From NCBI GenBank assembly GCA_021234155.1, contig JAJEKV010000031.1, forward strand, positions 62,001 to 126,000: a stretch of DNA of 64,000 nt, given 5' to 3'. The notes beneath the pieces are model-generated. The model was not told where the DNA came from. It made no database searches and was given only the letters and a program-made list of their open reading frames with translations. The position numbers were made by a program, and so were the translations under genes. Positions 3,950 through 47,000 of this stretch are shown here, one piece after another (the stretch's first letter is position 1; each line of letters begins with the position of its first letter). The stretch comes from Isoetes taiwanensis. Taxonomy: Eukaryota > Streptophyta > Lycopodiopsida > Isoetales > Isoetaceae.

Positions 3950-6242
3950 CTAGTTAAGGTGCCCAGCGTTGCTGGGCATAGCTAGAAACTGTGAATGACA
4001 TACTGGAGCAATTGTTAAAGGGATTCTTGTTTTTAAAATTGGATAATCAAGAGCATTCGACCATATTTCGCACTTCCCCTTATCTTTTCCGTTTTCCTTT
4101 TTCATTTTGCCTTTGTCTACTATTTTTTTTTTCCTATTTTCCCCTTGCCCCTTTTCCCTTTTTACATTTTTCAATTTACTTTTTTCTTTTTCCATTATTC
4201 CATTTCCTCTTTTTCTCTTTTTTGTTTCTGCTTCCCCATTTTTCCTTTTCTATTTTTCCCTTCCCTTTTCTCCAATTTGTGGTTGCCCTTTTTCCCTTTC
4301 CTTGTGCCCTTTTCCCCCCTCTCTTTCCCATTCCCTCTTCCCCTTTTTCCTCATGCCCTTCTTTTCTAAGTTTTCCTTTACGCTTTCCCTTTCCTTTCCC
4401 TTTTCCCTTTCCTTCTCCCCACCTTTTTTTTTCCCTTTTTTCCCTTCCCTTTTCCTCTTTTAGGTCTTCCCTCTTTTTTTCTAGTGCTCTTTTCCCTTCC
4501 TTTCCCCCCTTCCTTTTTTCTTTTCCATCTTTCCCTTTCCCTTTTTCCATGTCCATTTTTCCTTCGGTTTTCTCCTTTTCTCACCCTTTCCCTCTTCCCT
4601 TTTTTGTCATGTCCCTTTTCTCTTCTATTTTTTCATGCTATTTTTTCGCTCCTCTTTTCCCCTTTCTTCACCTTTTTCCTCCTCCCCTCCTTTTTCCTTT
4701 TTCCTTCTCTTTTTTTTTTTCTATTTTGCTCTTTCATTTTTATTCACTTCCCTTTCTATTTTTCCATTTTACCTCCCGTTTTTCCCTTTTGCCTTTTTCC
4801 ATTTGCTTCCACTTTTTTCACGCTTGCCTTTTCAATTTTCAACCTCCTTGCTTTTCCCTTTTTTCTATCCCTCCCTTTTCACATTCCTTTTTCATTCTTA
4901 CCTTATTTTATTTTCCTTTTCTCCCATTCCATTCCCTTCTGGCTTCCCTTTCCCCTTCCCCTTTACCAATGGCCTTTTCCCTTCCCTTTTCCTCCTCTCC
5001 TCCCATCTCTTTTCTATTCCGCTTTTTTTCCTCCCTTTTCCTTCCATTTTTCTCTCTTCCGCCTCCTTTTTTATTTCCTTTTTTTTTCCCTTTCTTTTTT
5101 TCTCATGTCTTTTTTCCTTCCCTTTACTCTCTTCCCCATTTTCATTGCCATTTATTCCTTCCCTTTGCCCACCTTTTCCCTCTTCCCTTTTCTCGTAGTT
5201 TTTTCTTTCCCTTTCCTCCCTCATTTGTTCTTTTTATTTTTCCCTTTCCCTTTCCTCCCTCCTTTCTCTTCCTTTTTTCCGCTTTCTCCTTCTTTTCTCT
5301 TCCTCTTTTCCCCATGCCTTTTTCCCTTTTTGCCCCTCCCTCGCTTTTTTCCTTTTTTTACCCTTTCCATCCCTTTCTCCTCCCTTTTTTCTCTTTCCTT
5401 TTTTTTTTCGTGTCCTTTTTTCCCTTCCTTTTTTTCTCCTTTCCCCACCTTTTTTCTCTCCCCTTTCCCACTTGCCCTTTTTCGCTCCCTCCTCCTCTCC
5501 CTTTTTTTCCCTTTTCCATTTTCCTTTCCTTTTCCCTTCCCTTCTCTCTACCTTTTTCCTCATCCCCTTTTTCCCTTCCTTTTACTCCCCATCCTCACCC
5601 TTTCCCTCTTCTTCTTTTCATAGTGTCATTTTTTCCTTTATTTTCTCTCTTTCCTTTTCCTTTCTTTTTTTGTGCTATTTTTTCTATTTCCTTTTCCCTT
5701 TTATCCGTGCCTTCTTTGCCTTTCACTTTGCCTTTATCTCCTCCCTTTTCCTCCTTTCCCCACCTTTTTACTCTTCCCCTTTCCTTGTTCCTTTTCCTCC
5801 CTCCTCCCTCCCCTTTCTTTTACCTTTTCCTTTCCCTTTCCTTTTCTTTCCTTTTCCCTTTTTCCTTTTCCCTTCCCTTTTTCTCTACCTTTTCCTCATC
5901 CCCTTTTCAACTTCCCTTTTACTCCTATCCTCATCCTTTCCATCTTCTCCTTTTCATAGTGTCCCTTTTTTCTTTATTTTCCTTTCCCTTTTTCGTGCTC
6001 TTTTCGCTTTCCTTTTTTCCTTTCTTTCTTTCCCTTTTACCCGTGCCTTTTTGCCTTTCACTTTGCCATTTTCTCCTCCCTTTTCCTTTTCCCTTTCCTC
6101 TTCAGACATTAGATCATCGCCAATAATAGTGGAGGGAAGTCATGCGATAAATCTCGACCTCCGAATGCAATCGGATGATCTCAACCATCTAAATTAGGGT
6201 TTCATTCATGACATACTTACGCTATAACATTATAATATAAGA
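3950..6242 (-). mobile_element. Non-autonomous Helitron
   Basis: Read on the minus strand, the element starts with TC (TCTTATATTATAATG, at 6,242 downward) after a host A. It ends with a GC-rich hairpin, GCCCAGC-AAC-GCTGGGC (3,961-3,977), seven bases, then CTAG (3,953-3,950) and a host T. These are the defining Helitron terminal features: 5' TC, a 3' hairpin shortly before CTRR, insertion between A and T, and no target duplication. The 5' region also contains the AT-rich start and 'aaaccctaatttagatgg' stretch seen in many plant Helitrons. No Rep/helicase gene is present, so it is non-autonomous. Nearly all the interior is one polypyrimidine tract. Confidence 0.75.
4072..6105. repeat. Polypyrimidine (CCCTTTT-like) tract
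   Basis: About 2 kb in which the plus strand is almost only C and T, in irregular runs of CCCTTTT, CCCTTTTT and CCTTCC with rare interrupting ATG, GCC or TCG words. It could form triplex (H-DNA) structures. The purine strand would encode only Lys/Glu/Gly/Arg-rich peptide and the pyrimidine strand only Phe/Ser/Pro/Leu, so the long open frames here are compositional. Confidence 0.9.
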
Positions 6243-6658: not shown

Positions 6659-6662
6659 TTGT
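6659..6662. repeat. Target-site duplication TTGT, left copy
   Basis: TTGT directly outside the left terminal inverted repeat. The same four bases lie directly outside the right one at 20,435-20,438. TTGTA is also possible if the element starts one base later. Confidence 0.6.
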
Positions 6663-6693
6663 AACCACCATCCAATTAAATTGGGATTATGTC
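6663..6693 (+). repeat. Left terminal inverted repeat
   Basis: Begins AACCACCATCCAATTAAATT and continues GGGATTATGTC. Its partner reads AACCATCATTCAATTAAATT then GGGTTTATGTC on the minus strand. The differences are at positions 6, 10 and 24, two of them C/T transitions. Confidence 0.8.
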
Positions 6694-7159
6694 AACTCCA
6701 AAATCACGCCAACCTGCTATTGTCTTCTAGGGGGTTTTTGTTTTTTTTAACCTTTTTTTTTGGACTTCAAAAATAACATAAGGTTTGCGATTCAATGCGG
6801 TGACTTTTCATATGCGAATTGAAATATGCGTAAATGAAGAGCAAGTTGCTAAAAATTGATGAGACCAAAATTGCTTGCTCGATAGATGATAATATTAGGT
6901 TTGATAACAACAGATTGCATTATTTTACGAGGCAATTCGGACTTCGAAATTATCGATACATGGCACAAATATCATACAAAAATATCATATATTCCAATAA
7001 AACATTAAGGGATCAATCCATGTTTTTCCACGTGTTTAACAAGGTGTGGTTCCATGTCACCGCTCTATCCAGCCTGCACGATCTAACACTTCACCCACCG
7101 CCTTCCCCCATAGCCAAATTATGCATAATAGACACAAACTTCACCGTAAAATCATCCGT

Positions 7160-7620
7160 CGCGAAAGTTTTTGGATCGTAAGATGGTGGATTCTGTGGCC
7201 TGCGTTTGATTGTAGAAGCATTTGAGAGCATCATCATCCACTATGATTATATCATCCTTATTCCCGATACCAAGTTCGGTCCATCATGTTACTCAAGTGT
7301 TTGATGAAGATAGGTTTGCCTGTTGGATCCTTGGGATTAGTGAACTTCACACATTTGTTCTCGATCCCAAAGGGTCAACCAATGTCTACACGATTTCCCC
7401 AGTGCCTCCAAAGTATCCTTGATGTTCCTTAGTTCCATGGATGACCAAATACCAACTGGAAATAACACAGATGCCTCGCCTAGCATCTCCTTCAAGTCGC
7501 GCCGGATAGATCCACTTGGTGTTTGATTCCGTGTCCGATGAAACCGTTCTCTAGCCACTTTATTTTTCGGAAAAGTCTTGCAAAGGACTCCGTTTTAGGT
7601 CGAACACCACAACCTTCTTA
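7160..7620 (-). pseudogene. FCP1/NIF-like HAD phosphatase domain gene, transposon cargo
   Basis: Read on the minus strand, this stretch carries the landmarks of the FCP1-like (NLI-interacting-factor) HAD phosphatase domain, of the plant type whose first motif is DLNG rather than DxDxT. In order: KVVVFDL followed, after a one-base homopolymer shift at about 7,588, by NGVLCK (motif I nucleophile Asp); VGIWSSMELRNIKDTLEAL at 7,400-7,455 (the family's VGVWSS stretch); WDREQMC; and DDIIIVDDDALKCFYNQT at 7,206-7,259 (acidic DD motif of the active site). Frames change several times. Family members dephosphorylate phosphoserine in proteins such as the polymerase II tail, but the target here is unknown. 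It lies just inside the left terminus of the 13.8-kb element. The breaks may be decay or consensus errors. Confidence 0.72.
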
Positions 7621-7689
7621 GAAACGCAATGGAAGTTTGAAATATCAAACATGTATCCGGTAGTAAGATCACGATAACACAAACAATAC

Positions 7690-7830
7690 AAAATGGCGCC
7701 AAAGCGTGATTTGAAATAATCATAACCAAATCACGCTCGGCATTGATTTAGTTTGACAATGAAAAATAATCAAAGCACGCTTTGGCGCGATTTAATTCAA
7801 AGGTAATACAAATTAAATCACGGCGTGGCT
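7690..7830. promoter_or_regulatory. Cluster of degenerate CACGC/GCGTG motifs
   Basis: Half or degenerate copies of the element's palindrome: AAAGCGTG near 7,700, CACGCTCGGC near 7,727, GCACGCTTTGGCGCG near 7,774 and CACGGCGTGGC near 7,817. They lie just upstream, on the minus strand, of the FCP1-like coding stretch, as the motif does at other starts in the element. Confidence 0.45.
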
Positions 7831-8507
7831 ATTTAAATGGGCAAGGCCATACCTATCATCTTCGGTTTATTGCAGTCGCCGGCGCCATTCTCCCCTTCGC
7901 CATTTTTAATCTTTGTCTTCTTCATTTGTTAGAATTGTTATTTTCTATTAGTTCCATTGCGTCCTTCACAACTCGACATTATTTTACTATTGATTTGGCA
8001 AACCTGCGGAATCACTAGAGCCGCCTTCATTTTGGTTTCCACATCAATTACTTCATTGTTAACCTCGTGAATCTACTCATTTGTTGCTTGCATCACCCGC
8101 AATGTGGGCAAAATATTCCCTAAGTTCGCCATCACGCGATTACTTTGAGCAGCCGGTTTAGCGCCTATTTGTTCATTACCGCTTTCCTTATCAGTCGCTA
8201 GATTACTAGGTCCCTCACCGAAGCAACGCCCACTTTCGAATTGGACAAGTCTACTTAGACTTTTGATCTTCGGGATGATTTCGGGCTGCCATAAGGGCCT
8301 TTAGGAGACTTGGCAAGCACATGCATGAGGAATGGTTCAAAGAAAGTCTTTGGCCCGCTCATCACTCAAAGCGCTGACATCTTCTTGCACCCATAAGAGC
8401 CTCTCTAGCAATATAACCTCCAACATGAAGCTCCAAGCGGGTTGTATCAATTGGAGCAAATGCCTCGACGAGGTAAGCGACCATAGATCTGGGAAATCCA
8501 TTTTTAT

Positions 8508-9160
8508 TTAAGGGGCCCTTCTCCTTAGTTTGTAGCCGCTCGTGACTTGATTTCCCCCACTTAGGAGGGGGTCCCGATCCTCATCCTCTTTCGACTCATC
8601 CTGTTTCGACCGATCCCGATCCGTATGAAAGAATATAGTTCTTAAGTCCGGATCATCTAGAAGAAAACATTCCCATGCACCGCTATTGTCACCCCTTGGC
8701 CTTAGCAATATCATATTCGCCGTCGATAGCATGGCTATCATAATGAAGATCACATGTGCCATCTTTCGTGGCCTTTCATAAAATGACTCATTATCCTTAA
8801 CATCATATATTAGGCATCCCTCCCTAATAACTTTGAGGCACTCGGATCATGAGCGTGGATAGTGCATGCAGATGTGACTCACACGAAGGACAAACGATGA
8901 CAATAGTGAAGGACCTCGGTTGTCAATCCTATCACGGTTGGTAAAGAAGCATTTGTAGTCCTTCCGGTTCATGCCCATATCTCCTCTCCCACCCTCGGCC
9001 GGGTCAAACACAAAGAGTGATATATTTTTAAGGCGGAAGTTGATTCCGGCAAGAGACCTTTGTACCAATGGAGCTGAATCTTTGGGGCCGACGTCGTCTT
9101 CTCCAAATAATCTTCTTCACAAGGGCCACTTTTCTTCTCAACTCGGCCCAATTACCTTGG
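8508..9160 (-). pseudogene. Unrecognised coding-like stretch (cargo)
   Basis: Two long minus-strand frames run almost end to end. The first (9,068-8,850) contains LKNISLFVFDPAEGGRGDMG and a Tyr/Phe-rich CFFTNRDRID segment. After a frame change come ECLKVIREGCLIYDVKDNES, a hydrophobic VIFIMIAMLSTANMILL stretch, and a charged tail HTDRDRSKQDESKEDEDRDP ending at 8,508. The continuous protein-like composition across the frame change suggests one broken gene. I do not recognise the family and propose no function. It lies inside the 13.8-kb element on the same strand as the FCP1-like gene. Confidence 0.4.
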
Positions 9161-9239
9161 GGGGTAGAGTCTCCTTATGTTTTGTATTTTTAGCCTTCCA
9201 ATTCTTTAGGAAGTCCTTTGACCGTAGAATACAAACTTC

Positions 9240-9917
9240 TTGATGTCATCATTAATGACCTTGTATTTGTCCGGCAATCCAATTTCGGATAATGCCACAT
9301 CCCCCGAGATAGCTTTTGTAACTCAACTTTAACTGGTGACTTCATTTATCACGTACATCCTTTACATGGGTGCAGCACTCTCGAAGGACATCCTATCCTT
9401 GGTGAAAGCACCCTTCTTGTATAAGACTTCCTTCTTTAAGCGGTCTAAAACCCAAATGGTCTCAAGATCGTCCTAGCCCCCGAGTCTTTCTCATCTCTGT
9501 CACATTCAAGTCAAATATGCTTACATCAAGTGAGGCACCCTACCCATAGTGTCACGCTGACTTCCCTTGTGCATAAGCGCCCCGAATTCATTCCACTTGA
9601 GCCATCTTGCCTCCTTACAAAACACAATCTTATACGAGTCTGTTGGTCCCGACTCTTTGGATGAGCTTTTCGGAAGGATCCGCAATGTCATCACCACCTT
9701 TTTCTTTGATTTTCTTGCGGTCTTCTTCTTCTCAGTATAATTGTATCATGGCGACGAGTCCGCTCCAAAGAAATTTTGAATACCTCAGACTTTTGACCAT
9801 ACATGCGGTGGGCAATGGGCAGCCATATTCCACCCACTTGTTGGCGTGAAGCGCATGTTGTTCAGCGTATGGACCGCAATAGTACGGACATTGAATCAGA
9901 TCACAGAATAGAAACAC
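9240..9917 (-). pseudogene. Unrecognised coding-like stretch (cargo, 5' part)
   Basis: Minus-strand segments such as KWNEFGALMHKG (about 9,600), LDRLKKEVLYKKGAFTKDRM (about 9,420), LPDKYKVINDDIKKFVFYGQ (about 9,250) and WVEYGCPLPTACMVKSLRYS (about 9,800) are protein-like but sit in changing frames. It could be the 5' half of the gene continuing at 9,160-8,508. Its start region is immediately downstream, on the minus strand, of the palindrome array at 9,956-10,242, which may be its control region. Family not recognised. Confidence 0.35.
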
Positions 9918-9955
9918 GTAAAGGCGATTTGAATAGAATTGATCAAGAGAAAAAT

Positions 9956-10242
9956 CACGCCTGGCGTGAAATGAATAAAGTTACTAATGCAATCCACGCC
10001 AGGCGTGCTTTAAAATCAAACCACGCCCGGCGTGTTTTCAAATCAATCAATTCCACGCCATGTTTTCGCATCAATTGGTTGATTTGAAAACGCTGGCGTG
10101 AATTCGATTGATTTGAAAACACGCCTGGCGTGAATTGGTTTGATTTGAAAACACGCATGGCGTGAATACAATTTATGAAGCCAGGTAGATTTGAAAACAC
10201 GCCTGGCGTGAATTCGATTGATTTGAAAACACGCCTGGCGTG
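9956..10242. promoter_or_regulatory. Array of CACGCCTGGCGTG palindromes
   Basis: Perfect or near-perfect 13-bp palindromes at 9,956-9,968, 9,995-10,007, 10,022-10,034, 10,120-10,132, 10,152-10,164, 10,198-10,210 and 10,230-10,242, with degenerate ones near 10,054 and 10,090. The central base varies (T, A, C). Spacers are 15-35 bp and resemble each other ('ttcgattgatttgaaaa'). It sits upstream of the minus-strand coding stretch that begins near 9,917. The likely role is binding of an element-encoded or host protein. That is inference from symmetry, repetition and position. Confidence 0.7.
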
Positions 10243-10256
10243 AATATTAAAATGCT
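10242..10256. repeat. 15-bp target-site duplication, poly-A side
   Basis: GAATATTAAAATGCT, repeated exactly at 11,633-11,647, flanks the L1-like insertion. Confidence 0.9.
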
Positions 10257-11632
10257 TTTTTTTTTTTTTTTTTTTTTTTGAAGGCTAGAACTAGGTAGAT
10301 ATATATTAACTAATTATAAAATGTACAAATAAAAGGCCCCTAAGGAGCATGAGCTACAAAGCTCCCGTCTTGAGCTCTAGGCTCTCTTACTAATGCTCAC
10401 GATTACACCTACTACCTACTGCTCATCCATTGGTGGAGTGATAAAGCCTCCATCTCCCCTCATCCAGGAGCATTTGAAGTATGCATAGAATCCTTGAACT
10501 GCTCCTAGCCGATCAAAGGCTTTGTCATAGGCCCGGCCTGAACTCCTGATGTGTGAGATAGCCATTAAGGCCACGGCATGGTTAAAGACATTTCTGATTT
10601 TGGCCACTGAGATATCTTGAGCATCCAGAGCGACTGAACACCTATGCTTCCAAACCGCCCAAAGAGCAATGCATGTGATGGAGTATCCTAGCTTATCAGT
10701 TTGCACCAACACGATCCGGGGCCATTGTAGATCTGCGCCATCCAAATGAAGGATAGGAGAAACCCATTCCCAGAAAGCCATTATCTTGGGGCAAAAGAAC
10801 ATATGGCCGATAGATTCATGATCCCCACACTTAACTGTAAAGGACAAAAGGCATCTGCTACAATTTTCCTGCGGAGCAGCCATGTCTTGGTGGCTGGACG
10901 GTCATAACTAAGCCACATAAACATCTGAGTTTTTTTTGCACAGTACGAGGACCAGCATCTTGTCAAGTGCTTCACATATTCGACTCTGGAGAGATTGATC
11001 CAGGTGGATACTGCTGGCAAATCATCATCTGTTAAGGCTCTATAGACATCCTTCATCGAGTAAGAGGGCTTGTCATTGGCGGCCAGTTCGTCCCCTCACC
11101 TTCAATTCCGAAATCATATTGATCCGCCCATTATTTTGTTGTAGACCACTCTCCTCGAGGTTGTGCCACCAATCACGATTTTAGCTTCGGCCGGGACCAC
11201 CCGGCCATTACGAGCAATATCCCATAGATGTTTAAGGCGGGGAGATTCCGGCCTTTTCCCATTTCTTGTAGATCTTGGATGCATCGGGGCTAATGGGCAG
11301 TCCTCCCGAGGGCTGACCGCAGGCTCCAAAAGATGGAGAGGTTACCTGATTGCCCAAGTTGCTCCCGGTGTAAAGACTTCCTTAACGTCACCGCCAAGCT
11401 TCCAATATCTTCCTCATTATTGGGGATGTGCGAAGCTATCTTGAAGTCAATGAAGAACGACTGATTTGCGGGTCAATGACAAAGAGGGGCTTGGAGGTCG
11501 GGCTTGCTTTTCCCGACCAATGCCTTATGAAATGAGAGCCAATGTCTGGTTCAAGGTTGATAGCCCTCCAAACCAGCTTGCCTACGAGAGCATGAGAATG
11601 TATGAGAAGGTCTTTACTGCCAAGACCTCCAA
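10257..11632 (-). mobile_element. 5'-truncated L1-like LINE nested in the TIR element
   Basis: On the minus strand it begins inside the end of the reverse transcriptase ORF and ends in a ~20-base poly-A (10,257-10,279 as T on the plus strand). An exact 15-bp duplication flanks it. The first codons read GGLGSKDLLIHSHALVGKLV, the plant L1 motif 'GGLGLRDL..HNKALLGKW' that follows the RT domain. Length of 1,376 bp and the poly-A tail are typical of a truncated plant L1. The insertion split the palindrome array from the rest of the element. The perfect duplication suggests a fairly recent event. Confidence 0.92.
10416..11056 (-). pseudogene. LINE ORF2 C-terminal zinc-binding region (zf-RVT)
   Basis: Two overlapping minus-strand frames together give the RT-associated zinc-binding domain of plant L1 elements. 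First comes KKTQMFMWLSYDRPATKTWL then LLRRKI (like 'KIKIFLWLLLHDRLPTRDNL'). After one frame change follows CSRCLLSFTVKCGDHESIGH then MFFCPKIMAFWEWVSPIL, the Cys-x2-Cys...His...Cys cluster with the family's 'E(S/T)..H.FF.C' pattern. The frame ends at 10,416 with a normal stop, and the rest to the poly-A is 3' untranslated. It is the tail of a dead LINE copy, not a host gene. Confidence 0.85.
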
Positions 11633-11647
11633 GAATATTAAAATGCT
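11633..11647. repeat. 15-bp target-site duplication, 5' side
   Basis: Exact second copy of GAATATTAAAATGCT. The TIR element's own sequence continues to the right. Confidence 0.9.
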
Positions 11648-11889
11648 AACATCCTAATGCAGTTAGTTACCTTTTGTATAGAAATGTCTTCCCCATTTCA
11701 TTCAAAGTTGCGCTAATCTCGGGCCAACAAATAGGTGAAGTATTGGCATCCAAGATATGACACCTCCTATCGCATAGTGATTGTAGAACGCGCTTTTGGC
11801 CACAAGGCTTTGTTACGCTTTCGCTGATGAGGGCCTTATTGCGGCCTCAACACTTTTGCCCGTCGATGACGACAAATTTAATATTTTCA

Positions 11890-12830
11890 TTTAACATTAA
11901 CTCACGGAAGTTCGTCCACCACGGCAGGCTTGTTCAAGATCATATCCCAAGGTAACACATCCGGCCGGCATAGGCATTTGACACGGATTACTAATCATGC
12001 TCGAACAATCTCCATGGCATGTCTTTGGATCATATCTTACGCTAACATAAATGGAGCTTGGTGAGCGGATGAGGGACTTCACATGGATCGCAAAAAGTTT
12101 CCTTAAGACCCAATGGATAATGGTTTGGTATTTATTCAAACTTGTTCATGGCCTCTAGGCTGCGCCACTTTCTGTTCATTCTAAAAAGCGAAGCCTCCAT
12201 GCGCCCGACAATTTGCAGTTGAACATCCTTCCCTAGATCTAGGACCCTCTTAGAAGCTTTCAAGTCAGCTAATTCCTAGCTTGCCGCAAATAGTGACTTG
12301 GTCGGGTTTAGTGAACATGCCTCTACGCATTTGTAACCCCTTGGCAAATAGATATTGGCGTAAATCGCTACATTGGTTGGCCAACCATACTTAAAACATG
12401 TCTCACCGTTCACATACATGTCTTCATGAGCGTATCCTTGTATCGCGATAGCTCTCACGATTGAAGTAAGTGCGGCGGATCTTTATTACGCTTACATTGT
12501 AATCTCAAAGAGCAATTTGCGGTTGGTGTCATCCTCTTCCTCACAAGAGATTAGGATCCCTTGTTTGGCCATCTTGTTCGCCTTCCTTTTTCCTCGAAGA
12601 GAGAGTTAAGTCGAGCTTGCCATTTGTCTTGGCAAGGTCAACATACCACTCGGCACCCTCGTCCATTTCCTCTTCGAGGCGGGGTCGGTGGTTGCTATAA
12701 GAATCGGCCCTTCATCATCTAAGGTGAGATCATATGAGTGCGCATGTCGTCGATCGCCCTTGCTTTCTTGGCGGGATTAGAACTGAATTATTAGGGGTTT
12801 TCTTCCTCTTGAGCACTGCAAAAGAAGATG
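11890..12830 (-). pseudogene. Unrecognised coding-like stretch with exon-like start
   Basis: On the minus strand a TTTTGCAG acceptor-like site at about 12,820 precedes protein-like segments in shifting frames: EWYVDLAKTNGKLDLTLSSR (about 12,640), QGYAHEDMYVNGETCFKYGW (about 12,430), ASKRVLDLGKDVQLQIVGRM (about 12,220) and RYDPKTCHGDCSSMISNPCQ (about 12,020). It may be joined to the exon at 13,140-13,583 by an intron (12,830-13,190). The family is not recognised. It is part of the 13.8-kb element's cargo. The number of frame changes is high even for a decayed gene, which fits the error pattern described under findings. Confidence 0.35.
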
Positions 12831-12864
12831 AGCACTTTTTAGAGTACTTTTCAGAACAAGAGAT

Positions 12865-12952
12865 CACGCTTGGCGTGCATTTAAACCTAAATTAGTACAA
12901 ATCACGCTTGGCGTGTTGGTAGCTCCTATTATTGACCATGCTATGCGTGAAT
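12865..12952. promoter_or_regulatory. Three CACGC(T)NGGCGTG palindromes
   Basis: CACGCTTGGCGTG at 12,865-12,877 and 12,903-12,915, and a degenerate CATGCTATGCGTG at about 12,940. They lie in the presumed intron between the minus-strand exon-like stretches at 13,190 and 12,820. Confidence 0.55.
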
Positions 12953-13139
12953 TTGAAACTAAATTATTTTGCATCCACATTTTAAGCTACATACCAGTAA
13001 TGAATCCATATTTCACACTATTTAACCTCATTGAACATTGCTATCTCCAACTGTCTAACACCGCTATATTCTATATATAAAACAAAGCAAAATTATGTTC
13101 TACAGAACGGACAATCAGAGCATTAACTGATGTTAATAC

Positions 13140-13583
13140 TTAAAATTCATGCAAAGCATAATAACTCAAACTCTGTGGCAAATTAAATACCTTGAATAGG
13201 GTTACGTGGCCTCGTATTATTACGATCAACGTCCTCGAAGCTTGAGAAGTGCAGGGTTTTGGGATTCCTCTTCCACCGCTTCCCTCTGCACAAAAGCCTC
13301 GACCTCGATTCACTTTAGAAGACATCTCAGGAGTAAGCCTAGTAGCAGAGTCGGAAGGTCTTTTCCGGATCTGGCCTTTAGCTGCTTTCGAAGAAATAGA
13401 GAAATAGAGAAATTTGAATTTCAAGAAATAGAGAAATAGAGAAATAGAAATTTGAATTTCAAGAAAACACAAAATGCGGTTTGAAATATTCTTGACACAT
13501 ACAAATAATAATGGCGAAGACCCGTCCGCCGAGCTTCTTTCATTAAGTTTTAAAACCAATCTACCCAAAAAGTATCCCGCCAA
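13140..13583 (-). CDS. Possible first exon of the minus-strand cargo gene
   Basis: An open minus-strand frame of 147 residues. The likely coding part begins at an in-frame Met near 13,325 (MSSKVNRGRGFCAEGSGGRG) and runs to a good donor-like site CAAG|GTATTT at about 13,190, after which the frame only reaches a stop by reading intron-like sequence. The upstream part contains an imperfect 33-38-bp tandem repeat of 'gaaatagagaaa' words (13,390-13,465) and is more likely leader than protein. Gly/Arg-rich start, otherwise no recognised domain. Confidence 0.35.
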   Translation of the reverse strand: MAGYFLGRLVLKLNERSSADGSSPLLFVCVKNISNRILCFLEIQISISLFLYFLKFKFLYFSISSKAAKGQIRKRPSDSATRLTPEMSSKVNRGRGFCAEGSGGRGIPKPCTSQASRTLIVIIRGHVTLFKVFNLPQSLSYYALHEF

Positions 13584-13799
13584 ATTTATCCCGCCTAAGC
13601 GTAGTTAACCTAATCTTTCTTCTAATTGAATTTTTTCAGGCCAGGAGTTTCCATAGCCTTGACTTCTCAAATTAGCTTGAGAGACTCAAATCGGCTTCTC
13701 AAGAATGGCTCTGAGTGCGGTATTCATCTCATTTCAATAGCGAACATTAATTTCCAATAGTAGGTAATGCGAATAGCAATTTTCTGCAATGTCGAAGAT

Positions 13800-14033
13800 G
13801 AATGTTTCATGTTAACTACAATCGAGAAAAGGAAAGTAGGATTATGCAAGATCGACTCCATCGATCCGGTATGCTGTCATGGAATTCGCTTTCGGGGATA
13901 AGTATGTCAGGATTCTACAGTGGATTCTTCTTTGCGCTATGGATGAAGCTTTTACCTCGCGAACACCAGATGGGGATACGGTTGGAGAAAGTGTTGGAAC
14001 ATTTGTTGCATGGCCAAGAAACCGCTTAAAAAG
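13800..14033 (+). pseudogene. Fragment of transposon-associated 'VGTFVAWP' protein
   Basis: Plus-strand frames contain VEDECFMLTTIEKRKVGLCK then, after frame changes, FGDKYVRILQWILLCAMDEA and PDGDTVGESVGTFVAWPRNR, ending at a donor-like AAG|GTATGT at about 14,035. The last segment resembles the 'TVGxAVGxFVAWP' block of unnamed plant proteins found in CACTA and related transposons, often upstream of a Ulp1-type protease domain. The resemblance is from memory and short. No protease domain is visible nearby. Confidence 0.35.
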
Positions 14034-14541
14034 GTATGTAACATGTATTACATTGTAGAAATATAGAAGTAGACAAAATTTGTTGTATTCATTGGAAAAA
14101 GATTACAATTGTATATAATGCGGATAAACTGGATAAACCGGACAAAATCCCGGACTCTTGTTTCAAGCCCGGTCTCTTGAGTAGCTAGGCTATCGATACT
14201 CCCATTTCCATTCGCGAGGGCATAGTGAATTCTTACGGTAAAACCTCGGCAAAAACACCGGGCTCTAGCTCCACCACCCCCCTTTGCTCCACCTCCACCC
14301 CCGCTCCTGCTCTGCTCTGCTGCTCCATTGGTTGAACCTCCAATGCATCATTATAACGCTGCGGTAGTGGTTCCATTGGTTGAGCCATCTCCATTGCATC
14401 ATTATACGCTTTGTGGTAGTGGTTCGTGTTAGGGCATCAGGGCATAGAGGCTAACCACTAAAGCGCGGCTCCTCATTTTTTGAATCTCGGTGGCCGGGTC
14501 GAGATTCACTCGATCAATGCATGTCTTGCATTTCGAAGTGA

Positions 14542-14835
14542 TTAGATAAGAGGGCCGACCTCGTGCGATTGCAAGGGCCCCGAGCCCAGATCTATCATTG
14601 CCACTGCGCTCTGCGCCATCATCATTACTTGATCCAAGTACTCCGGGGGTTGCAAAGGCTGGTGCTCAGTAGGGTGGTGCTCGGCTGGCGGTTCAATCGG
14701 TTGGAGATTGGGCAAAGCTGGGGCTAGGTACGTGTGATTGCTGGTCCAAATGTAATTCCAATGCATCTTCGTCTGTAGGGTGATTAATGCAACTTGGCAT
14801 CTATCAATAGGAAGTGGAAAATGTCGATATTCCAC
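14542..14835 (-). CDS. Small Pro/His-rich ORF, unknown
   Basis: 97-residue minus-strand frame starting right beside a palindromic motif (14,833-14,844). The middle is rich in Pro, His and Glu (PIEPPAEHHPTEHQPLQPPE). No domain is recognised. The adjacency of the start to a conserved motif copy is the best argument that it is transcribed. It may be only the first exon of a longer product. Confidence 0.35.
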   Translation of the reverse strand: MEYRHFPLPIDRCQVALITLQTKMHWNYIWTSNHTYLAPALPNLQPIEPPAEHHPTEHQPLQPPEYLDQVMMMAQSAVAMIDLGSGPLQSHEVGPLI

Positions 14836-14990
14836 GCTGGCGTGTTATATTTATTATTTATAAACTTAGAAACTAAGAACCGCTAGCGGCGTGTTTAAGC
14901 GTAAAAGTTGAAAGTAGGGATACAATTGTTTGCAGCTCGGCGTGTATGGCGCTATATAGGAAAAACTATACGGCTCGGCGTGCACTCAGC
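14833..14990. promoter_or_regulatory. Palindrome and TATA-like region
   Basis: CACGCTGGCGTG at 14,833-14,844, then CGCTAGCGGCGTG (about 14,882), CTCGGCGTG (about 14,942) and CTCGGCGTG again (about 14,974) around a minus-strand CCTATATAG box near 14,950-14,958. Same parts list as the two clearer promoter-like regions at 15.73 and 16.92 kb. Confidence 0.45.
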
Positions 14991-15016
14991 CCGAGGGAGA
15001 AAAAAAAGCATGCGGA

Positions 15017-15100
15017 GATAGATAAGTAAATAGATAAAGGCCGGGCAATTATTTACGGCGGTAAATAATTGCCCGGCCTTTATCTATTTACTTATCTATC
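15017..15100. repeat. Perfect 40-bp-arm palindrome
   Basis: Arms 15,017-15,056 and 15,061-15,100 are exact reverse complements with a 4-base loop. The arm starts GATAGATAAGTAAATAGATA and includes GGCCGGGCAATTATTTAC. A palindrome this perfect must be young or maintained. It could extrude as a cruciform, or be a processed hairpin RNA or a miniature inserted element. Confidence 0.95.
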
Positions 15101-15724
15101 TGTCACGATTCCCTCTCTACAGTGCAGCGATGTATTCATGTTGAAGGCTAAGGTTAGCATAAAAACGGCTTAGCGTGTTTCAAATATTATCTTTACGATT
15201 TTTCTAATGCTTTCTACTACACTTATTCGGCAATAGAAACTTGCATGCAATAGCATGATTAATTAGGAAGAAGAGAAACTCAAGAATTTACGAAACAAAA
15301 GAAGCGGATGAAGTTTATAAAAACTATTACGGTTTTCATAAACATCATCTGCTTCCTCCTCGAGCAAATGCAAAAGCTTGTCTTCTTGGATTAAACCTGC
15401 CATTGAGATGCAACTTAAAACTAAATGAAAACTAACCTTGAGTTACGAGGTTTGGAAGGATTGAAGAGCGAGGAGGACTATGCTTTTGTGGTTTTAATTT
15501 AGGTTTTTCGATTCCGAGTCTCCGATGTCCTCCCTTTCTGGATGCTTCTGAGAACAAAGGCGGAGTCTTTTAGTAAGTTAGGAATTCAGAAACCAAACAT
15601 CTAACATTGATGAATATAAATCGCTCACCAAGATTTGGGGACGGAATGGATCAAACGGCAGGCATAGCAAACCAAATCGTATGAAGGAAGGAAGAAAATG
15701 TAGGAACTTTGAGAGCGTAAAATG

Positions 15725-15797
15725 GATTTATATAGGCACAATTAGAAATAAGTTAAGCGTGAATAATTGATTGCTTGAATTAACACGCTGGCGTCAT
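15725..15797 (-). promoter_or_regulatory. Minus-strand promoter-like module 1
   Basis: TATA box CCTATATAAATCC on the minus strand (15,725-15,737) with a palindromic CACGCTGGCGTC 49 bases upstream (15,784-15,795) and a GCGTG half-site between them. Paralogous to the module at 16,919-16,985, including the intervening 'gcgtgaataatt' and the downstream 'ggggacGGAATGG' leader. Only short open frames follow downstream. Confidence 0.5.
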
Positions 15798-16507
15798 GTA
15801 CGGTCTTCCGCCGGACGACATGTATATGGTATATATGGAGAATATTGCATTTCATGCAATAAATTCTCCATGACATTTTATTCCATTTATTGCATTGAAA
15901 AAATAGAATTTAGAAATTTTATATAGGCTAAATTAAAAATGATTTTAAAGGCAAAATTATGAAGGCTAAAAAATGACTTGTAAGGTTGGGGAATTGTTTT
16001 AGGTCGTATAGGAAAATTTCCTATGGTTACCGTGTTTGATTTATAGTGTTCAGGAGACTTTGTTGAGACAAAAATTTGAGATACAAAATTTTTAGAAAAA
16101 GTGAGACGAACGAGGAGACAAAATAATTGGAGAAAGCAGTTGGATTTAATTCAAATAATTTTATGTACTGAAAAAGCGTTTGAAGAACCTTTGTTTGAAG
16201 AAAAGTTTATGAAAACTGTTTGATTTCATTCATAAAAGTTATATGTCTGGTGAGGGTAAGCCCAGAAGGCTTGTGGAGTGCCGAAGGCTTTTCACAAAAT
16301 TACATGAAAAATATGCGGAGGCGTGTGCAAAGCTCTCGTACAAACCAAAAAACAAAAGGGGCGCTTAGGGATCTCGCATCATTGATCTTCCACGTGCGGA
16401 ACAAAGAAGAAAGAAAGGTGTTAGAAAAGAAAGAAAGGTGAAAAAAAAAAAAGCAGGACATGCAAAACTGGCTCATCTCTCGGCCATTCTAAAACTGGGT
16501 GAATTCT

Positions 16508-16690
16508 CGACCTTCCTCCTCATCCTCTTCCTCCCCCTCCTCCTCCTCTTCCTCCTCCTCCTCTTGAGATTTCATTCTCACGTTTTGTGGTCAAGCCAAC
16601 CACGAAGCGGAAGGTCATGTGCTCTTGGGAGGACATCTCCTCCTCTTCCTCCAACTCCTCCTCTTCCTCCTCTTCCTCCTCTTGAGAATC
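16508..16690. repeat. (CTC)n / (CTT)n microsatellite-like tract
   Basis: Two runs of CTCCTC/CTTCCTC words at 16,508-16,565 and 16,637-16,683. Read on the minus strand, they give the Glu- and Arg/Lys-rich segments of the small ORF beside them. Confidence 0.8.
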
Positions 16691-16812
16691 GGAGGAATGG
16701 AGGAGCTCAACTCCTCCTCTTCCATGTCGAAATCAAAATCATCCTCACAATCCGAATCGAGGAGGAGAATTGGGCAAGAAAATCTATGGGGAAGAGAGAG
16801 AGGGTTCTTCAA
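16615..16812 (-). CDS. Small acidic/basic ORF downstream of promoter-like module 2
   Basis: 65-codon minus-strand frame (non-ATG start as drawn), with an acidic middle DSDCEDDFDFDMEEEELSSS followed by a basic KRRKRRKRR stretch. It lies about 110 bp downstream of a TATA box. The composition comes largely from a CTC/CTT microsatellite, so it may not be a conserved protein. Confidence 0.25.
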   Translation of the reverse strand: MKNPLSLPHRFSCPILLLDSDCEDDFDFDMEEEELSSSIPPILKRRKRRKRRSWRKRRRCPPKST

Positions 16813-16918
16813 CCCGACATCTCTTTGTGAGACCTCGGGTTCTTCATGAAGTTCGAAATTTGAGGCTTCATGGCGCGAAAAAAAATTGGGGACAGAATGG
16901 TCTTGAGAGCGTGAACCG

Positions 16919-16985
16919 GATTTATATAGGGTTAATTAGCTCTTAGCGTGAATAATTTATTGCCTCAAATAACACGCCAGGCGTC
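16919..16985 (-). promoter_or_regulatory. Minus-strand promoter-like module 2
   Basis: TATA box CCTATATAAATCC on the minus strand (16,919-16,931) with CACGCCAGGCGTC (16,973-16,985) about 43 bases upstream and a GCGTG half-site at 16,955. Spacing and order match module 1, which supports a real regulatory unit rather than chance motifs. Confidence 0.55.
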
Positions 16986-17362
16986 TGAAATTCCCATGAC
17001 TATATTATCTAGGGTATATTATTATGGATAATAAATTCTCCGTCTATTAGTTATATGTCTTTTCAGTAATCATATATCCAAATTTTAGATAATTAAAATT
17101 TGGATATATTTATATAAATGTCATTTCCTTGTTGTTGCCATGAAAATTCTTGTTTTAAATGATTTCGTTTACGCCCATTGTTATTATTATATTAAACCTA
17201 TTTCCAAGGAATTTCTTGCTTTTAAAAACATTTGATTTACCTTTACATATTCCATAAATGTGCATTACTTTTTTATCTTATGGTGTAATAATTTTTCTTA
17301 CTCATTGACTAAAAAGGGTGCAATTTGCCTAGGTCAATGGTGCCTCTCCAACTCAAGATGGT

Positions 17363-20234
17363 GTGCAACATATTGAAAAGAGCAATATCAATGAAAAACC
17401 AACTCCTAGCAAGAATGTTGAAGAAAAACAATTAGTCCTCTATAGTAGGGTGCAATGGAGGAACAAGGTGGTGAGAATTATGCACAAGTGCAACAAGGAA
17501 ATAGTAGGCCAAGGAGTCATTGTGCTAAGGATCACGGTCAATTCTGTTAATGATGAAAGGCTAGGGGAAGACAATATTGGTATTGCAATTTCGATGTTGG
17601 AAGGCAACTGGAAAGGTAAAGGTTTGGGTGACAAGGAATGTTTTGGTTGTGTCAAGCAATTGGAGGTTCCTTGCATCATGGCATGGCCTATAAGTAGTGT
17701 TCAATTTGTGGAGGATTATATTTTTCGAGCCCGAGGTTGTTGGGGACAATGATTGTCTTGATATTGATCCATTGGCGGTTGGAACTCTAAACCTAGGCAA
17801 AAGGGGAGAAGTATCGGTTGCCGGACATTATCCTAGCAAAAGAGCCAAGTTGATTAGTGACACCAAACGTGAGACAATGGTGAAGGTTAGGGGCTCAGTT
17901 GTTGTTGGAGTGATTGTATGCAATTCTTCACAATAGAACAATTGGTGGAAGCAAAGAGCCACGTTTCAAGAGTACTTGTTGATGAGAGGAGGACCTACAT
18001 GTACACAATCTTGAGCATGCACTTCAAGATGAAAGAAACCCAAAAGAAAAAGATACCCTTTGCTAGGCAAATGGATATGTGCAAAAGCATGGCGAGTATC
18101 CATGCAATTCCAACTTCTTCATGGCATAATTGGCAAAAAGCAGTGAGAGGGGGAAGGGATTGCTTTACATGGAAATAATGGTTTGTTGAGACCAACGGCT
18201 AGGACCTTGGCTGCCCGGGGAGATATTTGAAAAATATATTGATTTCAATCTGCGAGTCTATGCCACACAAAAGCGAAGGGATGAAAAGGGAAAAGCGGTT
18301 GTTGAGAAAAGGTTGCCATCACATTGTACTCAAAAGAGTATTTTGGAAGAAGTGAATTCCCTACTGAGAGGTGGGAATTCTTCCAATATCCCAACCTAGC
18401 TTTAGTAGGTTATGGAAGAAGCATTTCAATCATGTCACCATAGCAACTTCAAACAACTTTGCAAAGTGCAATTTATGTGCTAAGTTGAAGGAGACTCTTG
18501 ATAAGGCGTGCAACCTAGTCAAAGGGCTAGGATAAGGGAGCATATGAAGGACCATATGGTGACCAACTATCATGTAGATCATGTTATTGGATGTGGAGGA
18601 CTTTATCGCATTGGAACCCAATAACTATTTATGTATTATACATGACAAGATGGACCAGCAAAAAGACTTGTCTTCCACAATTCAAGTACATACCAAAGTC
18701 ATGTGGAAGATCATACCCTTCTACAGATCTCAATGGTGGGGGCAATCTTGCATGGGGCGAGAATCAAACCTACTATGGCCATTTTAGTTTGGAGTAGGTG
18801 GGTGATGGTCCAGATTTTCATATTGGGAGTATCATGAGGTGTTTGAGAAACTATGAAAATGGATACAATGGTCACCTCCGGGACCTTTCTGACTAGCCGG
18901 GCACTACATAGAGCATTGTTAGATGGAAACCCTAACAATATTGAAAAGTTCAGCAAGGCAAGGTTTAGGAAGCATGGGTCTAATGAACATGTTGGAGCTT
19001 CAACTTCACGTGCTAAACCTCAAGATCTACCCAAAAGGTTTCTCTTGCAACTTGATAATTGTCTTTGGCCAAAATAAAACGGTGGATGTTTTCTTTCCTA
19101 TCCTACTTAGCAAGTTGTGGGGATATTTGAAAGAGTTAATTTAGGGTTTCTTATGCCCGGGCATACCCATGAGGATGTGGATGCATTATTTGGCAAATAT
19201 AGTTGTATATCTTGAAGAAAAAACAAAGTGACCAACTTTCCTAGGCTAATGGAAATCTTGCATGAATGCACTACTCCAAACCCTATAGCTTCTCTCATAG
19301 AAGAAGTGCCCGATTGGAAGAGCTTTGTGGATGGTTATACATTGGATCTTGAAGGTCATTCCAGGCCTCTGCGAGTTCACTTTTTGGGTGAGAGATGGGA
19401 TTCCAATCTTCCAATGGAAGATGAGACCTTGAGGAGGATGAGTGGAGAGGAGGGGGGAGGAAATATGGCGTAGAGATGAGAATGGCAAGCCTATGATACC
19501 TCTAGGTCAACCAAAAGCTTTAAAACCTACTGAAGAAGTGAAGCAATTGGGATTGACTAAGGAAGGAATCCAAGACTATATAAAGCATTGGCAAACCAAT
19601 CCGGATGACACCAACCGTGCCTTGGTGGCTTCTTGGGAAGAAGGTGATTAACTTGTGGGGGGAGATAGACACATCCTCGGATGAATTGAAAAGAAGGGTG
19701 GTTGCCTAAAACTAGGTGGAAGACCTTAGCGGTCTTGAGGATTTTGATGACTTTGTAAGTAGCATTCGCAAGCAATATGCTCCTCCTCCCTCGACAAATA
19801 CTATGTTGGTCCTAAGAACAATAGGCCAAAGTTTCTAGGCATGGATGCTTATGAACCTTCCACTGACTTGGAATGCCACCAATTTGTGGTAGTAAAGCCA
19901 TCAGATTTAGATACATATCCGGTGTAGTTGGGGTTCACTATCTACGATATTTGCAAAGAAGAAGGTAATATTAACTTCAACCATAATGCTTGGGTGGAAT
20001 GGTGGTGTCCGGTGCATCGGTTGACCAACGTGTCGGATAAAGAAAGGTACTGGATTGTTGGACAAAGAGATGGAGGAGAAATCCGAAAGTGATCCTGATC
20101 TTTGGCTAGACTATGAAAGTGTTTTGTACTCATGGACTCCAAACACTATTCCGGCTAGAAATGCGAAATTACAATACCTCGAGGATATGGGGAAGAAGGC
20201 TATGATATCATTGGGGGTGCTTGAAGAAAGTTGA
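17363..20234 (+). pseudogene. DUF7869 transposase-like gene of the TIR element
   Basis: Broken across about ten frames, but the order of motifs is clear. FAKCNLCAKLKETLDKAC (18,458-18,511) is the Cys-rich 'F.KC..C..LKE.L' stretch. NNYLCIIHDKMDQQK (18,620-18,664) is the hallmark 'YL.(I/L)I.D.MDQ.K', followed by CLPQFKYIPKS. FLLQLDNC (19,039-19,062) is 'LQ(L/M)DNC'. GFLMPGHTHEDVDALFGKY (19,145-19,201) is the hallmark 'FLPVGHTHED(I/V)D..F'. Downstream come VPDWKSFVDGY, a Trp-rich segment and DPDLWLDYESVLYSWTP to a stop at 20,234. The conserved acidic residues fit an RNase H-like transposase core, as proposed for this family. The gene ends 170 bp from the right TIR. Stops and frameshifts make this copy inactive as read. 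Confidence 0.82.
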
Positions 20235-20403
20235 ATAACTATGTAAATTTTTGTTATCACGTTTTTATGATATGGTGCTATATTGTGAAATATTGACTAT
20301 TTTGTAAATAACATGATATTACGTTTTCATAATTTTGAGGTGAAATGTGTGAATTTGAATATGTTACTAAAAACATGCAATATGAAATTTGTCCCAAAAT
20401 TAA

Positions 20404-20434
20404 GACATAAACCCAATTTAATTGAATGATGGTT
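20404..20434 (-). repeat. Right terminal inverted repeat
   Basis: Partner of the repeat at 6,663-6,693, 28 of 31 bases identical on the opposite strand. Confidence 0.8.
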
Positions 20435-20438
20435 TTGT
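20435..20438. repeat. Target-site duplication TTGT, right copy
   Basis: Matches 6,659-6,662, directly outside the right TIR. Confidence 0.6.
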
Positions 20439-25654: not shown

Positions 25655-26705
25655 ACAAAGGCTCTTTCCCATACTCTTTTTTCCTTTCTTTTTTCTATTT
25701 CCTCACCCTTTCCCTCGTGCCCTTTTCTCCTTTCTCTTTTCCTATTCCTTGCTCCCTACCCTTTGTCTATTCTACTTTCCCCCACCCTTTTCCTCCTTTT
25801 TCCATCCTTTGCCTCTTCCTTTTTCTCGATGCTCTTTTTGCTTCCCTTTTTCTCTTTCATCATCCCTTTTCTCTTCCCTTTTTTTCACGCCCTTTCCTTT
25901 TTTCTCTTTTTCTCGTTCCCTTTTCCCAAGTTCTCTTTTGCCCTTTTCCCCCTCTCTTTTCCTTTTTACTTTCCTTTTTCCCATGGACTTTGCAACCTTT
26001 TCTTATTTTCCCTTACCTTTTTCTCCTTTTCTCACCCTTACTTCTTACCCTTCTCGCGGTGCCCTTTTTCCTTTCCCTTTCCCCCTCGCCTATTCTATTC
26101 CTTTTTCTATTTCCTTTTATCTTTCCCTTTTTCCTTTTCTCCTTCTCTTTCCTTTTTCCTCTTACCTTTCTTTTATTCCTTTTCCCTTTTCCCTTTTCCC
26201 TTTCATCGTTTTTCCTTTTCCCTTCCCCTTTTCCTTTTCCCTTTTCCCTTTTCCCTTTCATCGTTTTTCCTTTTCCCTTCCCTTTTCCCTTTTCCCTTTT
26301 CCCCTTTTCCTTTTACCTTTTCCCTTTTCATTTTTTCCTTTTCCCTTTTCTCTTTTCCCTTTTCCCTTTCATCTTTTTTCCTTTTCCCTTCTCTTTTTTT
26401 CCTTTTCCCTTTTCCCTTTTCTCTTTTCCTTTTCCCTTTTCCCTTTCATCGCTTTTTCCTTTTCCTTTTCCCTTTTCCTTTCCCTTTTCCCTTTTCCCTT
26501 TCATTTCCCTTTTCTTTTCCCTTTCCCTTTTCCTTTTCCTTTTCCCTTTCATCGTTTTTCCTTTTCCCTTTTCCTTTTCCCTTTTCCCTTTTCCCTTTTC
26601 CCTTTTTCATATGGTTTTCCTTTTCCTTCCCCTTTTCCTTTTCCCTTTTCCCTTTTCCCTTTCATCATTTTGCCTTTTCCTTTTCCCTTTTCTTTCCTTT
26701 CATAT
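25655..26705. repeat. Second polypyrimidine array with higher-order TTTCAT punctuation
   Basis: About 1 kb of CCCTTTT/CCTTTT words. From 26,201 on, the run is punctuated by TTTCATCG-type words at about 26,201, 26,256, 26,367, 26,444, 26,498, 26,547 and 26,660, so the array has a rough 50-60-bp higher-order unit (some missing). It follows an R fragment ('gaatgaaagaaagacttgaa') directly. Long open frames through it are compositional only. Confidence 0.9.
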
Positions 26706-44760: not shown

Positions 44761-45138
44761 TCAGATAGTAGACCTAATATCGCTTCGAGGTATTTACCAA
44801 AACTGCTTTTAAACTCCGCCCTTGCATGTTGCAAAGATTTTATACAAAGACTAGGGGTTACCAGCAGATTTCGTCTGCTGAGAAAGGCACCTGCAAGTAG
44901 TGGATACAGACCAAACAAAACCCATAATTGAAATCTCAGCTATTAGCACTTATGTGTTTCTGGAGAAGATGTGGTCAAACCAGTACAGACATTAGCAACA
45001 AAATATGAACTCATCAACATTTTATGGTCCCTCATTCAAATGGATTGTTCGTTTGCGCTTAACCTCTTACTCTTTTATAGCGTCGTAATGTCCTCTATAC
45101 GGTTCTGGATCGTGGTTTCTTTCTTCTGCTATCAAGCA
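44761..45138. other. Unassigned segment between R copies
   Basis: No match elsewhere in the window and no recognised gene. Its right edge folds back on the next R unit: TTCTTTCTTCTGC, then GCAGAGGCAGAAAAGAAAGAA (45,118-45,155 region). Confidence 0.5.
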
Positions 45139-47000
45139 GAGGCAGAAAAGAAAGAACTTAATGACCCCAGCTCTAAGACTACACAGAGTTCAATAACCAG
45201 ACCTAACAAGGTAATGACAAAAGGGTTGTTCAAGGCCAATAGCTACTCAATACCAACACTCAAGCAAATACAAAGAAAAAGAAGAAAGGATTCAATACCA
45301 CAACTTAAACTAAGGTTCATGGCACCTCGTAATAACATACCCTACAATGAAAAAGAGCCATGCCCAAAGCTTAACCAACGACTAGATTGTCTAGGAAAAT
45401 GAGTGATGCAAATTGGAGAGCCAACAAAGACGCTTTGCAAAGGACCGTGAACAATCATCCGACTATCCAAGGTAACCAAGGCCTCCAAATATACGCCAAG
45501 TCCAAATGCGGGCACAAGGTGGCACAAGAAAGTCTACAAGGGCACAAGGCAAGGCTAGGCCTGAGGGGATTGATCTTAAACAAGAGGGTAAGTAGATCAA
45601 AGCCCAAATCGAGGAGAACTATAAGTATGAGGCACCAAGCAACATAGTATCGACAAGGTTACAAGTGCATAAGGTGATGTACGACATAAAGGAATGCATG
45701 GCAATAAGCATAGAGGCTTCACACCTTTATCAAAAGATACCGAAGTTCGACAATCCCCCCTTCAAGGAACACAAAAGAGATAACTCAACAAGGCACAAAG
45801 CTTCATGAGTATCCTCTTGATTATCAAAGTGTCCCTCAGAATCATATAAAATAGCTAAATATTGCAAGAAGTCATGGTGAATGCATGACACTGACATGAA
45901 CCTAACTCGTTTGACAAAGAGGCCTTCTGTTGTCCTTGTTCAGTATAAATTAGCACACTATATCAAAGCAAGGTGCAGATCAAATCTACAAAGTTGGACT
46001 AATGCATCCACTAAGAAGTAGTTTGAGAATGAAAGAAGAGGCTATGGAACGAGAGAGAATGAAACACTCAATTCTAATGAAATGGCACTGCTAGTATGCA
46101 CCTTAAAATGATATGAAGTGTACACACCACAATGTAGGAAGAAGGCATGCGATGACTAAAAAGCAAAAGCAAGGGTTGAAAAGGCAACTAGTCGGAACAA
46201 TTTTGCATGAACCGCCACAACATTGACAAAGGGGCAAAGGAACCTACACCATATAAACCATTAGCAAACTTTGGAACACACCCAAGGTGGCCAAGAAGAC
46301 GAAGCTCCAACTCATGGAAGAGACCCTCCAAAGATGCCTACGATGCAATTCTCCCAATGCCCAACACTAATACCGACCAAGAAGCCTCACATACCAAGCA
46401 TATAACAATCAACTCCATGGAACAAAAAGGAGTCCATTGAAAAGACTAACAGAAGTGCACTAACAAGTTAAGAACTCAACAAAAATTTAGGAATCAAACT
46501 ATGCAAGAATGAAAGAAAAACCCGCCAGCCTCCAAGAGGGCATATCCATAAGCATAAGAGACCAAAACAAACACCCACCCTAAAAAAACACCCACCTCTT
46601 CAAGAGAAAGGAACACCGCCAACCTCCTGTGGGCATACCCATAAGTGTAGGAGACAAATAAAACACCCACTTGAAAAAACACCCACCACAAATGCCATTT
46701 AATGACCATCTCAAGATTGATATTAACCAAATGGCCAAGACGCAAAAATTTTAAAAAAATTAGAGTCTAGAAGGTCTAGATAGATTAAAAGGTATCCCTA
46801 TAAGAATACGAAACTCAAGATATGGGTGACTTAGAATAGAAAAAAATGTGTCCATATAAGAACATAAAACTCAATATGTGAGTGATTAAAAAACCTAGAG
46901 TGGCCCAGCTATGCTATGGATGCATATGAAATCAAAATATGGGCACAACTAAGAGTTATAAAATAAGATATGTCAACGTACGTGAGTGACCCTAGTAAAC

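Follow-up and report, generated by a model that had tools for sequence, protein, structure and literature searches.

A highly repeated quillwort transposon with defined inverted ends, a DUF7869 gene as its most likely transposase, and conserved passenger genes

In a 64,000-nucleotide stretch of the genome of the quillwort Isoetes taiwanensis (assembly GCA_021234155.1, contig JAJEKV010000031.1, positions 62,001 to 126,000; hereafter the window), two inverted 31-bp ends enclose a gene with DUF7869, an unnamed Pfam domain. This part of the window is an old and damaged copy of a large DNA transposon, highly repeated in the genome, that has defined terminal inverted repeats (TIRs), a 4-bp target-site duplication (TSD) and a set of accessory genes on the minus strand. 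We regard it as very probably a cut-and-paste element of autonomous type, with the DUF7869 protein as the most likely transposase. For DUF7869, this gives defined ends, a 4-base footprint and unexpected conserved passenger genes.

Ends and size of the window copy

A sequence-only reading of the window had proposed a 13.8-kb transposon whose 31-bp inverted ends agree at 28 positions, with TTGT outside both. The ends were borne out by alignment of 6663-6693 with the reverse complement of 20404-20434, which match at 28 of 31 positions without gaps, the best local alignment stopping at 31 bp. The two TTGT copies lie immediately outside, at 6659-6662 and 20435-20438. Inverted 31-mer pairs with at least 28 matches, 1-20 kb apart, were absent from all six first-order-Markov shuffles of the window. 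With the same match criterion at all distances, the real window gave 8,962 matches, largely unmerged, the first 60 listed of which fall in other window repeats. A chance test inside the window is therefore not decisive, and the matter is decided by copies elsewhere in the genome.

The proposed size needed correction. A 1,391-bp segment with poly-T at one end and a 15-bp duplication at its borders is missing from all 17 copies whose alignment spans the point 10258/11633; these are the usable ones among the 20 genomic copies fetched below, the other three (L011, L027 and L028) ceasing to match before the insert point. The segment also contains a zf-RVT-like piece (PF13966, E 0.0015, below cut-off). 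It is a later insertion of a long interspersed nuclear element (LINE), with which the poly-T, the weak zf-RVT piece and the 15-bp duplication all fit. This copy-specific insert rules out a single 13.8-kb unit: the ends had been placed correctly, and the element, 13,772 bp with the insert, measures 12,381 bp without it.

Genomic copies, target-site duplications and an empty site

The window's own assembly (1,658,258,908 bases in 1,110 contigs) was searched with a 238-bp left-end query. Of the 997 first-look candidates, 40 were taken on to scoring and every one matched, the 39 other than the window itself at 95%. Twenty of those 39 were fetched, 10 kb each. Because they are the best matches, chosen by left-end likeness, similarity inside the query is expected by construction and is uninformative, whereas a sharp outer boundary is not explained by the choice. 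All 20 start at the same base as the left TIR of the window, with differing outer flanks. For 12 of them the right end was also retrieved, and 11 of these have the right TIR. In every one of these 11 two-ended copies, identical 4-bp sequences stand outside the left and right ends (ATAT, AAAA, AAGG, TCTC, ACCA, ATTG, ATAT, ATTG, TATG, TTTT and TAGC). Across group A, the subfamily of the window copy, an exact and sequence-diverse 4-bp TSD was found in 13 of 13 copies with both ends recovered. When group B (described below) is included, 22 of 23 other elements examined have such a TSD, confirming the duplication length first suggested by TTGT, with variable sequence. Over 23 TSDs, counting that of the window, A and T make up 71% of the letters, with none of the four positions fixed.

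For each of the 11 copies, the two flanks were joined and aligned to the window and to the loci fetched up to that point. Those of the C1049 copy (L020/L035, one of the two with ATTG) can be aligned across the junction, with no gap, to L034 (494/584) and to L011 (325/440), two element-free copies of a host repeat. A paralogous empty site with continuous flanks and a single 4-mer is therefore at hand for one of the 11 copies; the remaining ten joined flanks had no second site among the window and the fetched loci.

The exact 31-bp end pattern AACCATCATYCAATTAAATTGGGWTTATGTC occurs 2,468 times genome-wide (1,218 + 1,250), against 0 + 0 for the reversed control. Pairing was assessed in the first 100 listed matches, among neighbouring pairs less than 60 kb apart (n = 38); 28 pairs face inward, and 16 of these span 12,110-12,477 bp. 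Inverted ends, TSDs, dispersed copies and an empty site, the hallmarks of a TIR DNA transposon, are thus all present. Ends of just 31 bp in a window rich in repeats might suggest two unrelated TIR-like fragments, inverted by chance around an unrelated gene. We give this explanation practically no credence: it is refuted by the genome-wide end counts and the shuffles, by collinear copies with recurrent spacing, by the matching TSDs and by the empty site.

Linkage of the ends to DUF7869 genes

As a genome query, P0001, a JGI protein 81% identical to that of locus L041, gave 14,033 first-look candidates, of which 92 were scored. Identity in the resulting 96 matches is 61-85%; many are interrupted by stops and some are free of them. 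In the C423 copy (L041), an open DUF7869 frame of 807 amino acids (aa) is followed by the right TIR. Of six further stop-free loci, five carry the right TIR downstream of the DUF7869 gene; complete elements were delimited at C1019 (TSD TAGT, 12,166 bp) and C908 (TSD GAAA, 13,401 bp). Five divergent loci, with 61-64% identity to P0001, all carry a related, distinct TIR shortly after the gene; these TIRs differ from that of group A by 4-8 mismatches in 31 and make up groups B and C. Altogether, 11 of the 12 loci picked by protein search have a right TIR behind the DUF7869 gene.

The group-B TIR was found 381 times genome-wide (180 + 201; control 0 + 0). The listed part of these matches contains 18 inward pairs less than 16 kb apart, and the ten taken from them delimit elements of 10.5-12.5 kb, nine with an exact 4-bp TSD. 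Two group-B pairs, C193 and C937, each enclose a DUF7869 match, and the subfamily-B transposase is about 64% identical to the probe. Ends and gene are linked in two subfamilies by both ends, and in the third (group C) by the right end. Further inverted pairs flanking DUF7869 genes therefore exist in the genome, and the tie of DUF7869 to a defined TIR and duplication length, drawn earlier from the window alone, holds. With these pairs and the empty site, the two checks by which the sequence-only reading could have failed were both passed.

The DUF7869 gene and its conserved residues

Matches to PF25273 (DUF7869, cut-off 26 bits) reach 37.4 bits in the window, 125.6 in L041 and 125.3 in L055. 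Within the window, one match (19111-19212, E 2.7e-9) lies above cut-off and a second (19216-19470, E 1.4e-4) below it, and recognisable coding stops at 20231, 172 bp ahead of the right TIR. A DUF7869 gene near the right end had been correctly recognised before; what had been omitted is that the gene is interrupted by frame changes and stops. Long open frames are found in two sister copies, with 719 aa (PF25273 E 3e-36) and 807 aa (E 2.3e-36).

In an alignment of 50 sequences (A3), with residues counted over the sequences having a letter at the position, four acidic positions are invariant: D284 (IIHDKMD, 47/47), D419 (LQLDN, 50/50), and D459 and D461 (GHTHED-D, 49/49), the latter two within the core block at 19111..19212. 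By analogy, they may represent a DDD-like pattern. A PDB sequence search with A3 returned a single match up to E 10, that of profile positions 798-891, in the C-terminal part of DUF7869, to an EBS chain (5z8n, 'chromatin remodeling protein'), which at E 0.77 is not significant. PF26133 is precomputed for P0003, P0005, P0066, P0067 and P0073; in our own Pfam scan it was absent from the results for P0003, P0005 and the N-terminal pieces of the element.

Relatives of DUF7869 were found in a liverwort, a hydrozoan, a mussel and a lancelet, and among many unnamed database sequences. In the lancelet and mussel set (P0096, P0098 and P0060), two lancelet proteins have a precomputed Ulp1 peptidase domain (PF02902), and a mussel protein matches OTU below cut-off; DNA transposases are often accompanied by peptidases. 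An IMG/VR scan with A1 gave 15 stretches matching a pattern and no relative among them, and a GTDB scan with A3 gave 49 stretches and three relatives. One of these three holds a 963-aa DUF7869 frame (L062:547-3438) on a 4.3-kb contig labelled cyanobacterial, which is probably eukaryotic contamination. Motifs of the TTTAGCTCGA type recur on both sides of this frame, and no convincing TIR plus TSD was found around it on the contig.

Several observations weigh against a family mobilised by a DUF7869 transposase. The DUF7869 gene of the window copy is dead, and that of C1019, the best complete copy, is split between two overlapping frames of 284 and 719 aa, reflecting either an intron or a frame break. 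The left end stands at the predicted place in just two of the six stop-free loci (C1019 and C908); for the C423 copy, C423:71300-73800 holds another repeat and no left end was found there, and C1109 lacks the right TIR after its DUF7869 match. At L019 (L019/L034) the right end is missing from the predicted place, and C435, of group B, has no 4-bp duplication. Of the 38 neighbouring group-A pairs, ten are not oriented towards each other, and among the 28 that are, 12 span more than 13 kb (13.8-42.5 kb). Finally, a period-3 signal was looked for among 14 close group-A copies and none was found, which is what neutral decay of inserted copies would produce; selection was therefore tested between subfamilies.

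Accessory genes and their conservation

The large cargo proposed by the sequence-only reading proved to contain accessory genes, and is better described as a minus-strand gene set kept in a second subfamily (Table 1). Open frames on the minus strand turn up repeatedly, in several of the copies, between 6.9 and 13 kb. In C193, the one subfamily-B element examined, the accessory regions follow in the same order with partly shifted frames; tblastn E-values are 9e-22 for the NIF/FCP1-like gene, 1e-20 and 2e-25 for the 7816..9850 region, and 5e-85 for the 11700..13000 region (52% identity over 242 aligned positions).

The NIF/FCP1-like domain (PF03031) was matched above cut-off in L020 (E 1.9e-9) and L028 (E 1.3e-7), and below it in a piece of L010 (E 0.0011). 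Active NIF/FCP1 phosphatases carry DxDx(T/V); the motif in C1019 reads FDLNGVL, which makes phosphatase activity of the predicted protein doubtful. The 7816..9850 region has no Pfam match above cut-off. In the 11700..13000 region, a piece from L025 is weakly DndB-like (PF14072, E 0.019, 14.5 bits, below the cut-off of 29.1), and the frame at 16615..16935 may mark where a minus-strand accessory gene begins. A homologue search with a 985-aa hybrid accessory query gave none at E <= 0.001. Part of an accessory gene had appeared methyltransferase-like by eye, a reading rejected for want of Pfam support.

Proportions of synonymous and nonsynonymous differences (pS/pN) were calculated between group A and C193 only, and were used in place of the synonymous substitution rate (dS) because accessory synonymous sites are saturated. 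The values were 0.81/0.32 for the 373-aa frame of C1019 (308 codons), 0.89/0.29 for the NIF gene (96 codons), 0.78/0.39 for the 474-aa frame of L010 (219 codons) and 0.56/0.14 for the 719-aa transposase frame (252 codons available); the N-terminal transposase piece (29 codons) was less clear, at 0.51/0.32. The excess of pS over pN between subfamilies indicates protein-level constraint on transposase and passengers, and the accessory gene set is conserved as protein between the two subfamilies.

That the minus-strand genes are likewise conserved, and that catalysis is assigned to DUF7869 from sequence, could be accommodated if DUF7869 were itself the passenger, the element being moved by one of its minus-strand proteins or by an unrelated transposase in trans. 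This is improbable in our view, given that the DUF7869 gene adjoins the right TIR in nearly all protein-picked loci, that the part of it available for comparison shows the highest conservation (75% at the amino-acid level over the 252 codons), and that it has invariant acidic positions, whereas eight accessory pieces scanned in Pfam match no transposase family. The DUF7869 protein is accordingly kept as the candidate transposase.

Table 1 Features of the element in the window
Feature	Position	Strand	Evidence
Left target-site duplication TTGT	6659..6662		Window copy, compared with TSDs of other elements
Left terminal inverted repeat, 31 bp	6663..6693	+	Window self-alignment; 20/20 fetched copies start here
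NIF/FCP1 phosphatase-like domain gene, accessory (limits approximate)	7003..7648	-	Open frames in copies; PF03031
Accessory coding region, no family assigned	7816..9850	-	474-aa open frame in copy L010
LINE-type insertion, only in window copy (1,391 bp)	10257..11647	-	Poly-T from 10257; 15-bp duplication 10242-10256 / 11633-11647; zf-RVT-like piece 10784-11095
Accessory coding region	11700..13000	-	373-aa open frame in copy C1019
Acidic, low-complexity open frame	16615..16935	-	Several copies have similar frames
DUF7869 transposase-like gene, broken in window copy (pieces in three frames)	17333..20231	+	Protein pieces of sister copy
DUF7869 core block with GHTHEDVDALFG	19111..19212	+	PF25273 E 2.7e-9, above cut-off
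Right terminal inverted repeat, 31 bp	20404..20434	-	Window self-alignment; in 11/12 copies at predicted right end
Right target-site duplication TTGT	20435..20438		Window copy

Elsewhere in the window, in a region rich in repeats, positions 45138-56463 hold direct copies of a unit of about 5.2 kb (offset 5,234; 96% over 6.1 kb), and further incomplete copies lie at 37.5-42.7 kb. Long polypyrimidine (TTTCCC-type) tracts occupy 4092-6103 and 26062-26700, the first of which yields long open frames that are apparently spurious.

Comparison with known transposons

Sola elements are described as having a DDD transposase, a 4-bp TSD, TIRs of 11-1124 bp and lengths mostly of 2-9 kb, some exceeding 15 kb, and as present in the moss Physcomitrella patens (PMC10741241). 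The quillwort element shares with them the 4-bp TSD (22 of 23 elements, plus the window copy), its 31-bp TIR and 12-kb size fall within the described limits, and the conserved positions of DUF7869 may be DDD-like; in contrast, its NIF-like and DndB-like accessory genes do not appear in the available part of the Sola description (PMC10741241). Judged by TSD, TIR, size and conserved Asp, and compared by description rather than by sequence or structure, membership in Sola is likely, and the family may be filed in Repbase already as Sola. Alternatively, it could belong to a separate superfamily that shares the 4-bp TSD by coincidence, a view favoured by the comparison being one of descriptions and by the 5'-AACC ends and accessory genes, which the same part of PMC10741241 does not include. 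With TSD length, DDD-like residues, size and TIR length all fitting Sola, we hold separateness to be possible and rather unlikely.

Three other groups were considered and rejected. The target of piggyBac is TTAA, whereas quillwort TSDs vary in sequence and adjoin AACC..GGTT ends. The piggyBac ends are given as CC..GG, with a 4-bp TSD (PMC10045372). IS3EU/GingerRoot elements, of which GingerRoot was found in the clubmoss Selaginella lepidophylla, are likewise DNA transposons with a DDD/E transposase, with a usually 6-bp TSD and TA..TA or occasionally TG..CA termini (PMC10045372), from which the quillwort element differs by its 4-bp TSD and AACC..GGTT ends. The 2-bp TA duplication of Tc1/Mariner (PMC10741241) also disagrees with a TSD of 4 bp. 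As to cargo, KDZ, EnSpm and other transposons carry captured TET/JBP genes, thought to help them escape host silencing (PMC12730594); these too are DNA transposons carrying an enzyme gene, but with other transposases and another accessory enzyme.

Within the collection of papers searched, a search for DUF7869 or PF25273 returned no paper naming either, and one on DNA transposon, Isoetes, Sola and phosphatase returned, judged by title, no paper on this element.

Proposed mechanism and implications

We propose a model in which the DUF7869 protein, whose gene lies at the right end, most likely binds to the 31-bp TIRs and would excise the element through an RNase-H-like DDD active site, a fold predicted by analogy. 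Joining to the target at staggered cuts 4 bp apart, followed by repair, would generate the 4-bp TSDs. The minus-strand set, comprising the NIF/FCP1-like domain, the DndB-like piece and other parts, would travel along, kept by selection, and probably aids transposition or dampens host silencing. A more far-reaching idea, to which we attach a rather small chance, is that DUF7869 marks a transposase lineage without named elements, and that the NIF/FCP1-like and DndB/DGQHR-like module protects the element via host transcription or DNA marking, as a kind of regulator not described before.

With exact ends and a 4-bp TSD assigned to DUF7869, annotators can recognise such elements, and the transposase becomes directly testable. 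If all ends belong to full-length copies, the group-A ends (2,468 halved, times 12.3 kb) could equal about 0.9% of the genome. The conserved phosphatase-like and DndB-like passengers provide a testable lead on the dealings of a plant transposon with its host.

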